Shown here one piece after another: positions 25,677-31,199 of a stretch of DNA of 41,072 nucleotides (its first letter is position 1; the number at the start of each line of letters is the position of its first letter). The notes beneath the pieces are model-generated. The model saw only the letters and a program-made list of their open reading frames with translations, made no database searches and had not been told where the DNA came from. Source of the stretch: Candidatus Zhuqueibacterota bacterium (lineage in GTDB: Bacteria; Zhuqueibacterota; Zhuqueibacteria; Residuimicrobiales; Residuimicrobiaceae); the NCBI GenBank assembly GCA_963169875.1, contig CAUJEL010000158.1, positions 1-41,072 of the forward strand, given 5' to 3'. The position numbers and the translations under genes were made by a program.

Positions 25677-27932
25677 CTATAATACGTAGTTGACCGCCGC
25701 TGCAGCGGCCTGCCTTCGCAACCGCAGCGAGTTGCTGAGAACGGATACGGAACTGAAGGACATGGCCAGGGCCGCGACCATGGGATCGAGATAACCGAGT
25801 GCGGCGAGGGGTATCCCCAGCGTGTTATAGATAAAAGCCCAAAACAGATTCTGCTTGATGGTGGCGATGGTGCGCCTGGAGAGCTCGATGGCGCTGACCA
25901 CATGCAGCAGATCGCCATGCACCAGGGTGATGGCGGCTGATTCGATGGCCACGTCTGTGCCAGTGCCGATGGCGATGCCGACGTCCGCCTGCGCCAGCGC
26001 GGGCGCATCGTTGATGCCGTCGCCCACCATGGCCACGAGATGCCCTTCTGCCTGTTCCTTTTTGATCGCATCCGCTTTGCCATCGGGCAAAACACCGGCC
26101 ACATAACCATCCACGCCCGCCTGCCTGGCTATGGCCGCGGCGGTGCGTTCATGGTCGCCTGTGAGCATGAGGACGCGCAATCCCCTGGCGCGGAGGGCGG
26201 CAACAGCCGCTTTTGAGGATGGCTTCAAGGGATCGGAAATGGCCACGAGACCGATCGCCCGGCCGTCTGCAGCGGCGTAAATGACGCTTTTGCCCTGTTC
26301 CGACCACTGCAGGGCTTGCGTTTCCCACAGACTGATCTCGATATTCTCAGCTTCCAGGAAGGATTGGCTGCCGATGACCATATCATGCCCATCGACCCGG
26401 CCTTTGACGCCGCCGCCGGTGATGGTGGTGAATGCATCCACGGTTAGCGATGAAAGGTTTTTCTCGCGGGCATACTGAACCAGCGCCTTGGCCAGAGGAT
26501 GTTCGGATTTTTCCTCCAGGCTGGAGATCCAGCGCAGACTCTCCATCTCATCGGCTTCTGTAAAAGCGATGTCGGTCACCTGCGGTTTCCCACTGGTCAA
26601 TGTCCCGGTTTTGTCCAGCACGATGGTATCGAGTTTATGCACCAGTTCGAGGCTTTCCCCATTTTTTATGAGGATGCCGCGGGAGGCTCCGACGCCGGTG
26701 CCCACCATGATGGCGGCGGGCGTGGCCAGTCCCAGCGCACAGGGGCAGGCGATGATCAAGACCGCCACAAAATGTATCAACGCCTTGTCGAATCCGGCCA
26801 TGCCGCCGAGCCACATCCATCCCAGGAAGGTGACCATTGCAATGGCGACAACGGCCGGCACAAATACGGCGGCGATGCGATCCGCCAGACGCTGCATGGG
26901 TGCTTTGGACCCTTGCGCCTCCTCAACCATGCGGACAATTTTTGCGAGCATGCTGTCGCTGCCGGTTGCGGTCACCCGCATCTCAAAATACCCGGCGAGA
27001 TTGATGGTGCCGCCAATGACCGCATCGCCCCTCTTTTTATCCACCGGCATGCTTTCGCCGGTGAGCATGGACTCATCCACACTCGATGAACCGGTCGTCA
27101 AGATTCCGTCGGCAGCGACGCGTTCGCCCGGCCGTACCAGCAAGATATCGCCGCCAGTCACCTGTGCCAACGGTATCTCGATTTCCATTTCTCCGCGGCG
27201 CACGCGTGCGCTGGCGGGCTGCAGCTGCAGGAGGGCGCGGATCTCCGCGCCGGTTTTTTTTCTGGCGCGGTGTTCCAGCCAGCGCCCCATCAAGACCAGC
27301 GTGATGATGACCGCCGCTGAATCGAAATAGACATGGGGTGGCGCTGAACTTTTCGCCAGCCAATCAGGGAACAAGGCCGCCAGGGTGCTGTAGCCATAGG
27401 CCGCGCCGGTGCCGATGGCGACCAGCGAGTTCATGTCGGCGGTGCGTTGTTTGAGGTTTTTCCAAAAGATTTGCATGAACCTTTTGCCGGGAATGAACAT
27501 GACCGGCGTGGTGAGGATCAGGAGAATTTTGTGTGTCGTTTCCGCCGCAAAGGGCCAGACATGGTGAAAAAAGCGGAATTCCATGCCCATGCTGATGACA
27601 AAGATGAAAAAGCTGAAAAATGCGGCGGTGCGCAGATCTGTGCGCAAAGTGACGTCCGACGCATCCTGCGGTTCGCCTGGCGCTGCTGCATTTGCTGTAA
27701 CCTCAGCGGTGCGCAAATGGTAGCCGCTATCCTCAATGGCTTGGGCCACTGTCTCCAGCGGGACATCTTCACTCAGCGAGAATGTGGCCTTTTCGGTCGC
27801 AATATTGACCGCCACATTGGCCACGCCGGGTATTTTATTAAGGGTTTTTTCTACCCGAGCCACACAACTGGCGCAGGTCATGCCTTCGACGGTGAGTGAA
27901 AGTAATTTTGATTTTTCAGCACTTTTTATCAT
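25677..27932 (-). CDS. copA: Copper-exporting P-type ATPase
   Basis: 751-aa P1B-1 ATPase that pumps Cu(I) out of the cytosol. One N-terminal heavy-metal domain has C20-A-S-C23 (GMTCASC). The actuator TGES motif, the ion-site C396-P-C398 in [11 protein letters not shown], the phosphorylated Asp D440 in DKTGTLT, the SEHPLAKA motif and the hinge [10 protein letters not shown] are all intact. Membrane helices 7-8 carry YNTLGIPLA and [15 protein letters not shown], the Cu(I)-type residues. The ATG at 27932 begins 4 bases after copZ, so translation is probably coupled; the ORF extends to 27986 but would overlap copZ. Confidence 0.95.
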
Positions 27933-27936
27933 AACT

Positions 27937-28134
27937 TTACGCCACGCTGTATCCAGCCTCTTCAATGGCGGCGACAATCTGTTCATGGCTTACTTTTGAT
28001 TCATCATATTCGACCTCGGCAGAACCAACATTCACGTTGACGCTGTTGAGATTTATTTGGCTCAATGCCTTGTTGACAGCCATGACGCAATGGTGGCAGG
28101 ACATGCCATCTATTTTGAATGACTCTTTTTTCAT
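27937..28134 (-). CDS. copZ: Copper chaperone / heavy-metal-associated protein
   Basis: 65-aa HMA-domain protein with the metal site M11-S-C13-H-H-C16 and a compact ferredoxin-like fold ([19 protein letters not shown], then [14 protein letters not shown], and [13 protein letters not shown]). It hands Cu(I) to CopA. AGGAG before ATG 28134 sets the start; an ORF extension to 28182 runs through the promoter palindrome and is rejected. It is the first gene of the copZA unit. Confidence 0.9.
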
Positions 28135-28162
28135 CGTCGACTCCTCATGGAATGATTTTGTG

Positions 28163-28193
28163 ACCTCGCGAAGGTTACGCACCTTCGCAAGGT
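28163..28193 (-). repeat. Palindromic repeat copy 1, at the copZA promoter
   Basis: ACCTCGCGAAGGT (28163-28175) and ACCTTCGCAAGGT (28181-28193) form a 13-bp inverted repeat with one mismatch and a 5-base centre; each arm is itself nearly palindromic. It sits just downstream of the -10 and 29-59 bases before the copZ ATG, an operator-like position. A 13-base stretch of it (28183-28195, CTTCGCAAGGTTA) recurs exactly at 31109-31121. Confidence 0.85.
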
Positions 28194-28220
28194 TATATTA
28201 ATTAACAAATATTTTTGCAA
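28192..28220 (-). promoter_or_regulatory. Candidate copZA promoter
   Basis: On the minus strand TTGCAA (28215-28220) and TATAAC (28192-28197) are 17 bases apart. The -10 overlaps the edge of the palindromic repeat, so a protein binding there could block or modulate initiation. Such placement is common for metal-responsive repressor or MerR-type sites, but no regulator gene is in the window. Confidence 0.6.
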
Positions 28221-28229
28221 TTTATTCAC

Positions 28230-28260
28230 AAAAAATCCCGGAGTGGGGTTTACTCCGGGA
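28230..28260 (-). terminator. Rho-independent terminator of sppA
   Basis: TCCCGGAGT (28236-28244) pairs perfectly with ACTCCGGGA (28252-28260) around a 7-base loop. On the minus strand a run of six T follows the hairpin. It lies 36 bases past the sppA stop and upstream of the copZ promoter, so sppA and copZA are separate transcripts. Confidence 0.93.
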
Positions 28261-28295
28261 TTCTTAAAAAGATGCACAATGTCCAAACGATGAAG

Positions 28296-30188
28296 TTATT
28301 TGATCAGGGGCAAGGCCGGCAGGGCGGTGAGCACTTTTTCATGTTCGGACAAATAGTTCAGGAAAAGGAGATAGACCAGTTGTTGTTTAACCGTTTCCGG
28401 CAAGAGCGTCCAGGCCGGCCACGCGGCGGTGAGGCTTTTCGCGTCCAATGCCATTGTCGCATTTTCTGCAACCTTGAACTGGTCGAAGAGTTTCATGAAA
28501 GCGTCCCAGGGGTCTTCGGGTTGCGGATAGAAGCGCAGGCGCACTTTTTGTCCCTCCGGGATGCCGATGCGGCGTTTGGCCATATCCAGGGCCGTCTGGA
28601 AACCGCCCAGGGTGTCGGCCAGGCCGTTTTTTACGGCCGCTTCGCCGCTCCAGACGCGGCCTTTGGCCAGCTCCCGGGTCTGGGGGAAAGTCTTGCCGCG
28701 GCTTTGGGCGACGCGTTCGACAAAACGCTGATAGATGTTTGCGGAGAGGCGGAAAAATTGTCGCTTATCCTGCTCTGTGAAGGGCATCAGCGGATTGAGA
28801 AAGAGCGCAGAGGGTGACGTGGCAATGGTGTCGGTGCTGGCTGATAATTTGCTCAGTGATTGACTGAAATTGGGGATCGCCGAGATCACGCCGATGGAGC
28901 CGGTGACGGTCTGGGCATGTGTGATGATGGTATCGCACGCCATGGCCATGTAGTAGCCGCCGGAGGCCGCCACATCGCTCAGGGAAGCATAGACCGGTTT
29001 GAGTTGTTTCGTTCTTTCTATCTCTTCCCAAATTTCATCAGCCGCCATGACCGAGCCGCCCGGACTGTCGATGCGCAGGATGACGGCTTTTATGCGTTTG
29101 TCATCGCGCGCCTGTTGCAGATAGCGCGCAAAGGTTCGCGAAGCAATATAGGATTCGGAAAAAGCCGGCATGGCCTCCTCATCGCCGGGCAGCATCATGC
29201 CGGAGCCGAAGATGACGGCGATCTGCTTGTCGCGGGCGATGGTTTCCTTGGCGGGCTGTTTATCGTAGCCCTGGATGTAGGTGTTGATCGCAATCATGGT
29301 ATTCTTGTGTTTGCTGCTGTCGCCGCCGTTCGTCAGATGCAGCAAGTGATCTCGCACGTACGATTCTGGGCGGATGGCATCGATAAAATTCAACGCCAGC
29401 AGGGTATCCGCGGTATAAACACCCCGTTTGAGGGCGGCATCTGCGTGCCGCACATCCAGCTTGCGATCGGCGCAGATGGTTTGCAAATAAGCCTGGTAGC
29501 GGGCGCTCAACAACGCCTGGTAGGACTGCCGTGCGAAAGGGCTGAAGCCGGTGCGACTATAGGATTCAGCGGCGGATTTGTATTCTTCGAATTGTTGTAC
29601 ATGGAATCTAATGCCGATTTTTTCCAGCGACTCTTTCCAAAAGATATCCTGGATGGCGAATCCATTCAATTCCATCATGCCCTCTGTTGGCATAAAGATC
29701 GAATCCGCGACGGAGGCAAAATAGTAATCCAGTTCACCGCCCAAATCCAGGTAAGCATGGATGAATTTTCCGGAGGATTTAAAATCTCGCAGAGCTTCCC
29801 GCAGCTCGCTGGCTTTCGCCATGCCGCACTTGAAATCACCGGACCGGTAAAAGAGCCCGAGAATGCGGTCGTCTTCTTTGGCGTGACCAATGGCTGTGAG
29901 CAGGTCGAGGAAGGAGGTTGCGTGACCGCTCTCACTGCTCAGTAGCGCCAGTGGCGCAGTTCGTGCATACTCTTCGATGTAGCCGCGCACATGGAGCTGC
30001 AGAACGGTATTGGATTTTATGCTGACCGGTTTGCTCTCAAACGAACCTCTCAGCAACGCAATAAATCCGACAGCCATGAATATAAAACCGAAAATGAGAA
30101 CGCCAAAAACGATGAGCAATACGATCCACCAGCGGTTTTTTGGACGGGGCGTTGCCGGTGTAGCAGAGGGGTTTGGAACTTGATCCAT
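28296..30188 (-). CDS. sppA: Signal peptide peptidase SppA, 67K type
   Basis: 630-aa membrane-bound serine protease that degrades cleaved signal peptides. One N-terminal membrane helix (about 20-46). Two S49 domains are in tandem, as in the long (E. coli-type) enzyme. The catalytic pair is present: K204 in EEYKSAAE, from the first domain, and S409 in DVAASGGYYMA, from the second, the same number as in E. coli. AVILRIDSPGGS and VTGSIGVISAIPNF are other family marks. AGGAG precedes the ATG. plsC is 44 bases upstream on the same strand, and the sppA transcript ends at the strong hairpin 28230-28260. Confidence 0.95.
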   Translation of the reverse strand: MDQVPNPSATPATPRPKNRWWIVLLIVFGVLIFGFIFMAVGFIALLRGSFESKPVSIKSNTVLQLHVRGYIEEYARTAPLALLSSESGHATSFLDLLTAIGHAKEDDRILGLFYRSGDFKCGMAKASELREALRDFKSSGKFIHAYLDLGGELDYYFASVADSIFMPTEGMMELNGFAIQDIFWKESLEKIGIRFHVQQFEEYKSAAESYSRTGFSPFARQSYQALLSARYQAYLQTICADRKLDVRHADAALKRGVYTADTLLALNFIDAIRPESYVRDHLLHLTNGGDSSKHKNTMIAINTYIQGYDKQPAKETIARDKQIAVIFGSGMMLPGDEEAMPAFSESYIASRTFARYLQQARDDKRIKAVILRIDSPGGSVMAADEIWEEIERTKQLKPVYASLSDVAASGGYYMAMACDTIITHAQTVTGSIGVISAIPNFSQSLSKLSASTDTIATSPSALFLNPLMPFTEQDKRQFFRLSANIYQRFVERVAQSRGKTFPQTRELAKGRVWSGEAAVKNGLADTLGGFQTALDMAKRRIGIPEGQKVRLRFYPQPEDPWDAFMKLFDQFKVAENATMALDAKSLTAAWPAWTLLPETVKQQLVYLLFLNYLSEHEKVLTALPALPLIK

Positions 30189-30232
30189 TTTTATCTCCTG
30201 CGGTCAAACCGTAAACAAAGAAATGCGTCTTG

Positions 30233-31018
30233 TTAGTTGGTCTCCTGGGCGGCCTGGTATAATCCATCCACCGCCTCGATGGGTTGACCACGCCAATTGG
30301 CGATCTGTTCCATGATGGTTTGGCGGGTTCTTTCTCGTAACAGGCCTACATCCTTCGAAGTCATTCCCGTGGTTTCGATGGGGGGAAATATGTGCATACG
30401 CACTTTTTGCGGTGGTCCAAAAATCCACGAATTTTTCGGCAGGCAAGCTCTGGCGCCTTCTATGGCCATGGGGAGAACCGGCAGTTGTGTTTTGATGGCG
30501 AGGTGGAAAGCGCCGTCATTGAAAGCATGAACCTTATCATCCTGCGCACGGGTTCCCTCGGGGAAAAAGAATACGGAGCATTTGTTATCGAGAACCTTCC
30601 TGGCTGCCAGGAGCGCCTGGACGCCACTGCGTTTGCTGCTGCGATCCAAAGGAATGTCGCCTGCAATTCGCATCATCCAGCCCAGAACGGGTGTTTTCAT
30701 CAGGGCTTCTTTGGCCACCCATTTGCATTCCAGGGGCATGCGCGCCAGGAAAGGAATATCCAGAACCGACTGATGGTTAGCGACCACCACATAAGGACGC
30801 CGTGGCTCGGATATTTTCTCACCGGTGATACTCAGATTCCAGGCTGGATTCAATTTTTCGATGGGCAGGGAAAGCCAGCGAAAAAAACGGCCGGTCCGGT
30901 AGTGGGCGGGGTCGCGATCAAACAAACGCACCAGTAACACCAGAGGCAACCACAGGATGATAGCCAGTACAAAAAATCCCCAGATCAGGGCAGATTTCAC
31001 TGCGTTGACGAGTTCCAC
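30233..31018 (-). CDS. plsC: 1-acyl-sn-glycerol-3-phosphate acyltransferase
   Basis: 261 aa. PlsC acylates lysophosphatidic acid to phosphatidic acid at the inner membrane. The HX4D site is N-H82-Q-S-V-L-D87, the substrate motif is FFPEGTRAQDD, and a membrane helix lies at about residues 10-32. The start is GTG at 31018, with AAGGA seven bases upstream. sppA follows after 44 bases on the same strand. Upstream is a 250-base space shared with the divergent CsgG-like gene. Confidence 0.92.
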   Translation of the reverse strand: MELVNAVKSALIWGFFVLAIILWLPLVLLVRLFDRDPAHYRTGRFFRWLSLPIEKLNPAWNLSITGEKISEPRRPYVVVANHQSVLDIPFLARMPLECKWVAKEALMKTPVLGWMMRIAGDIPLDRSSKRSGVQALLAARKVLDNKCSVFFFPEGTRAQDDKVHAFNDGAFHLAIKTQLPVLPMAIEGARACLPKNSWIFGPPQKVRMHIFPPIETTGMTSKDVGLLRERTRQTIMEQIANWRGQPIEAVDGLYQAAQETN

Positions 31019-31068
31019 GTGATGATCCTTTGCCGTTGTTAATTTTATTTATCATTAACCCAAGTTGA

Positions 31069-31131
31069 GCGATTGCTGCACCAAGGCAACCTTGCGCAGG
31101 CTGGGAAACTTCGCAAGGTTAAGGCAATCGC
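31069..31131. repeat. Palindromic repeat copy 2, inside a larger nested palindrome
   Basis: Inner arms AACCTTGCG (31088-31096) and CGCAAGGTT (31112-31120) are perfect over 9 bp. Outer arms GCGATTGC (31069-31076) and GCAATCGC (31124-31131) are perfect over 8 bp. The inner part aligns with the copZ-promoter repeat read on the other strand (AACCTTGCGnAGG...CTTCGCnAGGT). It lies between plsC and the CsgG-like gene, about 70 bases before the latter's promoter. Confidence 0.8.
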
Positions 31132-31199
31132 ACACTTTAGCTATAAAATACTTTCTTTTTGGAACATTTGCAAGCGGCAAAAAATTGCTGAAAAAAACA

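Follow-up and report, generated by a model that had tools for sequence, protein, structure and literature searches.

Classical REPs are defined by a GTAG/GTGG foot, and the transposases E. coli TnpA-REP and IS608 TnpA bind a folded hairpin on single-stranded DNA. The residues named for reading GTAG are W94, Q95, E100, H101 and R104 (Quentin 2018, PMC6006769). TIRYT/TIRtrons comprise a TnpA-REP-like gene with flanking non-GTAG inverted repeats, some of which are self-complementary and repeated in the genome (Di Nocera 2013, PMC3733652). They mostly fall in subclass 2.1 of a later classification, which describes no REP-like structures at that subclass; its subclass 2.6 of TnpA-Y1 proteins is associated with atypical hairpins in Bacteroidetes and has a median HuH-Y spacing of 82 (Quentin 2018, PMC6006769).

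The window considered here, the whole stretch of 41,072 nucleotides that was analyzed, belongs to a 5.0 Mb draft genome (G000; 95.6% complete) placed among KSB1 relatives. As a sequence-only reading had stated, the 13-mer CTTCGCAAGGTTA occurs exactly at 28183-28195 and 31109-31121 (both on the plus strand), and these sites are the right arms of one 33-bp hairpin, AACCTTGCGAAGGTT-NNN-AACCTTCGCAAGGTT. The opposite left arm, AACCTTGCGnAGG, which had been said to align as well, is exact in copy 2 and carries two differences in copy 1. Copy 1 (28162-28194, no strand; GACCTCGCGAAGG TTACGCA CCTTCGCAAGGTT) is a bare REP-like hairpin without MITE ends, and copy 2 (31088-31120, no strand; AACCTTGCGCAGG CTGGGAA ACTTCGCAAGGTT) is a REP-like hairpin forming the core of a MITE. 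Folded as single-stranded DNA, copy 1 yields -11 kcal/mol (z = -5.3, 5-nt loop) and copy 2 yields -9.9 kcal/mol (z = -2.4, 9-nt loop). Both are intergenic hairpins, as had been proposed: copy 1 lies approximately 28 bp upstream of a gene for a heavy-metal-associated (HMA) protein (PF00403; 27937-28134, minus strand, start near 28134), which is downstream of the hairpin, and plsC and a CsgG-like gene flank copy 2. Even when as many as 10 mismatches to the 33-bp consensus were allowed, the window yielded no third copy, again in agreement with the earlier reading.

The congener G001 possesses the same HMA gene with no hairpin there; copy 1 and the remainder of that intergenic stretch are both missing, and the G001 region is shorter. 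Two further features were observed in this part of the window. A heavy-metal P-type ATPase with an HMA domain lies beside the small HMA protein (25677-28134), in a gene order that is the same in G001, and a stem (AATCCCGGAGT..ACTCCGGGATT; 28231-28266) between SppA and copy 1 resembles, by eye, a possible terminator that the scan did not list.

At the genome scale, CTTCGCNAGGTT was found exactly 54 times, against 3 occurrences of the reversed control pattern, and the full hairpin with up to 3 mismatches at 45 sites, against 0 for the control. With neighboring matches read in addition to those sites, the genome holds approximately 50 distinct copies, which bears out the suggestion of a dispersed family and contrasts with the outcome named as its refutation, namely two genome copies only, both near regulated promoters. 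Among the placed copies, 38 of 46 lie outside called ORFs, whereas approximately 81% of random positions lie inside; in other phyla 73 of 88 copies lie outside, and over both sets 81-83% of random positions lie inside, all of these figures being approximate because the ORF calling was simple. Across the phylum, the hairpin is present in 25 of 69 searched genomes, patchily and with 1-39 copies each. The hairpin has no match in Rfam, and within the literature covered the motif turned up only in work on eukaryotic topics that have no relation to it.

A scan of public genomes with the pattern CCTTGCGAAGG-N7-CCTTCGCAAGG retrieved at least 112 stretches. The matches listed include Anaerolineae and other Chloroflexota, KSB1, Calditrichota, Ignavibacteriae, Cloacimonadota, Poribacteria, Neomarinimicrobiota, Bacteroidota and Opitutales; all matched genomes are metagenome-assembled, and single odd phylum assignments may therefore be contamination. 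Among these listed matches, letters outside the query remain paired: the outer pair -1 is Watson-Crick in 92/115 (AT 60, TA 15, CG 11, GC 6; shuffle maximum 63) and the first inner pair in 102/115 (TA 82, CG 19; shuffle maximum 83). The true extent, in the same set, reaches two outer and two inner pairs past the query, and beyond the second outer pair the flanks are neither paired nor conserved. Doubly compensated stems recur in relatives. Because unqueried pairs covary and compensated stems occur, the unit has a stem of 15 bp and a loop of 3 nt, and its pairing is kept as well as its sequence. Each arm is itself nearly palindromic (AACCTT-GCG-AAGGTT), and template-switch correction of palindromes, instead of selection, could be an alternative source of the compensatory changes.

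Covarying stem pairs would also be expected of an RNA element, such as a transcription terminator, mRNA stabilizer or attenuator, kept for its function in the transcript, and proximity to gene ends fits the same idea, since 58 of 86 facing gene 3' ends in the cross-phylum set lie within 50 bp of the hairpin. We nevertheless consider this explanation very improbable: the hairpin is symmetrical, lacks a T-tract and stands in every gene orientation, its copy number is patchy among relatives, and Rfam holds nothing that matches it.

In KSB1 OFTM177, a pair of hairpins separated by 631 bp encloses one gene, located at L244:1501-2064, whose 188-aa product belongs to the Y1 transposases: it exceeds the PF01797 (Y1_Tnp) cut-off and carries the HUH motif and the catalytic Tyr. 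This protein is homologous to E. coli TnpA-REP (4ER8), weakly so by sequence (E = 0.004), and this type of transposase scores 76.6 bits against NCBIfam NF047646, just under the 80-bit cut-off. When the OFTM177 protein was searched at E <= 1e-10 in 53 genomes, nearly all of them picked for holding the hairpin, a homologue was found in 32 and none in 21; the window genome yielded none. Six of the 30 fetched loci have this hairpin on both sides of the gene (L244, L245, L249, L253, L254 and L255) and three carry it on one side only (L252, L271 and L273), compared with approximately 0.02 hairpin-at-transposase cases expected by chance. At loci with readable gene ends, the hairpin stands approximately 20 nt from the start or stop codon. 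The hairpin thus flanks transposase genes closely in several phyla, with sharp boundaries and covarying stem pairs. Since it brackets Y1 (HUH) genes of the RAYT kind in these genomes, its earlier description as REP-like and RAYT-linked is supported, with three departures: the hairpin is GTAG-less, no cognate RAYT was found in the draft genome of the window, and a MITE carries about half of the copies there.

Different, equally symmetrical hairpins enclose further homologues within this protein group. Such transposases were read at L246, L248, L250, L257, L258, L260, L263-L267 and L272 (e.g., GTGACNGTCAC, AGACCTCCGAGGTCT and GCCACGCACC), and each of these hairpins probably represents a separate repeat family. 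The HuH-Y spacing is 60 in nearly all group members read, and LF[QE]GR-like motifs are common to the proteins; L269 has approximately 35 extra residues between HuH and Tyr. Phylogenetically, one strict clade of the proteins flanked by this hairpin is not supported (p-AU 0.034), and they are grouped only together with close variants (support 69/89). At L273, the hairpin (~1502-1533) lies within or at a broken RAYT-like gene.

Alignment with 4ER8 places F, Q, K, H and V at the five GTAG-reading positions of the hairpin's transposase, so that three of the five residues are lost (W94, E100 and R104 replaced by F, K and V), and the hairpins have no GTAG/GTGG tetranucleotide at the 5' foot. The sole RAYT of the window genome (G000:C146, locus L158:1411-1914) has W, Q, D, H and R at these positions and adjoins another REP family of the GTAG type (GTAGGAG repeats; GTAGGAGGCCTCTCCAGAGGCC and related). 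Protein and repeat therefore agree on both sides, F, Q, K, H, V going with the GTAG-less hairpin and W, Q, D, H, R with the GTAGGAG repeats. The resident RAYT was rejected as the driver of this hairpin, as it adjoins a different REP.

Copy 2 differs in kind from copy 1. It is central in an 83-bp MITE (31059-31141, no strand; ends CCCAAGTTGAGCGATTG ... CAATCGCACACTTTAGC) with a left terminal inverted repeat at 31059-31075 (plus strand, 2 mismatches to CCTRAAYTGAGCGATTG) and a right one at 31125-31141 (minus strand, 3 mismatches). A left remnant of the 5-bp target duplication, ATTAA (31054-31058, plus strand), faces TATAA on the right (31142-31146), 3/5 identical. The sequence-only reading was right that the two are copies of one palindromic repeat; they are not equivalent, however, one being a bare hairpin and the other the core of a MITE with 17-bp ends and 5-bp duplications. 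The MITE family measures 83-85 bp, has 17-bp inverted ends CCTRAAYTGAGCGATTG and contains no ORF. Approximately 20 of the ~50 genome copies are the center of a full MITE, approximately 11 have one end (two of them doubtful) and approximately 19 are bare. For 21 full MITEs, the 5-bp flanks match at 0.81 (shuffled mean 0.456, maximum 0.60), and duplications of other lengths are at chance level in the same elements. In G001, the intergenic region of copy 2 aligns on both sides and the MITE is absent, which represents an empty site in one congener at one site.

MITEs with these ends are found throughout the phylum, and their cores differ: G003 has this hairpin, G001 another palindrome, and OFTM177 a GTAG-type REP doublet (143 bp), a REP that is also found outside MITEs. 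No GTAG-type RAYT was matched, in the loci fetched, beside the GTAG REPs of G031, a member of the same class as the window genome that is taken as OFTM177. That the same ends carry several cores suggests that the MITE repeatedly captured REP-type palindromes. An empty 46-bp precursor with the same ends and no hairpin was not found in G000-G005. A 71-73-bp form with the same MITE ends and no hairpin was observed at G000 loci L204-L207 and L179, with apparently three in tandem at C136. As for a parent insertion sequence, the ends are present in many relatives, and no transposase was seen between the end pairs read; those standing 563-877 bp apart in G115/G116, considered as a candidate autonomous parent, hold no transposase recognizable by eye.

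It might be argued that all genome copies derive from the MITE, that the bare hairpins are MITEs whose ends have decayed, and that the RAYT link is secondary, in keeping with the approximately 31 of 50 copies that retain one or both MITE ends (the two doubtful one-ended copies included). This origin appears highly unlikely, because in many phyla, and at transposase genes, the hairpin has no MITE ends around it, because the loops of bare copies vary whereas those of MITE hairpins are mostly GGG/CCC, and because no 5-bp duplication is seen by eye around bare copies. The loop pattern instead fits a single capture with subsequent amplification of the MITE. That the hairpins are operators of a conserved regulator, for example a copper-responsive one at copy 1, is slightly less credible still: copy 1 does lie shortly upstream of a gene for a metal-binding protein, and it overlaps a promoter candidate picked out by eye (TTGCAA-17-TATAAC, minus strand), but the candidate is absent from the promoter-scan list, the ~50 copies stand beside unrelated genes, changes in the stem are compensated, and the congener with the same HMA gene has no hairpin copy at all, so that a dedicated copper operator was rejected on copy number and on G001, copper operator function for copy 1 is unlikely, and the doubt already voiced in the sequence-only reading is upheld.

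We favor, with considerable confidence, a GTAG-less REP of a RAYT-like Y1/HUH transposase, whose dispersed copies are now non-autonomous and of which one hairpin was captured and multiplied by a MITE. The DNA hairpin would be the recognition element of this transposase across FCB-group phyla and Chloroflexota, and the enzyme would bind it folded on single-stranded DNA and cut near its foot, thereby seeding dispersed copies. Because the draft genome yielded no cognate transposase, the copies in this lineage are presumed to be non-autonomous at present, and we infer mobilization of the hairpin from its anatomy and the known biochemistry of TnpA-REP. One hairpin would then have ended up in the center of a MITE of 84 bp, with inverted ends of 17 bp and a 5-bp target duplication, that was multiplied by a putative, probably DDE-type transposase, leaving copy 2 as a MITE composite and copy 1 as a bare hairpin. 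Any effects on nearby genes, such as transcript hairpins, would be incidental, and a selfish repeat, captured and re-amplified, is the most likely nature of the family.

With no more than middling confidence, a broader pattern may be proposed. One MITE family (ends CCTRAAYTGAGCGATT, 5-bp target duplication) may repeatedly take RAYT-type palindromes as cargo (the AACCTTGCGAAGG hairpin in G000 and G003, the GTAG REP doublet in KSB1 OFTM177, and another palindrome in G001), producing composites with two independent modes of spread; alongside it, a poorly described RAYT-like group, with LF[QE]GR replacing WQxRFxEH, may use symmetrical hairpins without a guide tetranucleotide, one hairpin sequence being kept across phyla. 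REP-like repeats outside the GTAG rule are hereby documented with cognate transposases in Chloroflexota and FCB-group phyla, and the question of what determines where a RAYT cuts, given a symmetrical hairpin and the loss of the residues that read GTAG, is opened to testing. Multiplication of REP-type palindromes by an unrelated MITE family would constitute a second route of REP spread where the transposase is absent.

Compared with known systems, the family resembles classical REPs and REPINs as a short palindrome with many dispersed intergenic copies, and the REPtron of E. coli TnpA-REP (PDB 4ER8) in that dispersed intergenic hairpins also bracket a Y1/HUH gene with a homologous protein. It differs in its symmetrical 15-bp stem without a GTAG/GTGG foot and in the lack of a cognate RAYT found in the same genome (a 95.6% complete draft), while the flanked transposase departs from classical RAYTs in the three replaced residues and the NF047646 score. 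Size, inverted ends, 5-bp target duplication and lack of coding capacity match the MITEs of DDE-type insertion sequences, in contrast to the REP-like hairpin core and the parent insertion sequence, which was not found. The nearest known kinds are TIRtrons and subclass 2.6, neither of which fits every tested point. TIRtrons share the non-GTAG repeats that flank a TnpA-REP-like gene and in some cases recur in the genome, although the members scanned here lack the HTH/DnaA_C C-terminal domain and the GGGGWSAS motif was not seen; subclass 2.6, despite its median HuH-Y spacing of 82 against the 60 found here, likewise has atypical GTAG-less structures that are found beside the gene and are repeated in the genome.
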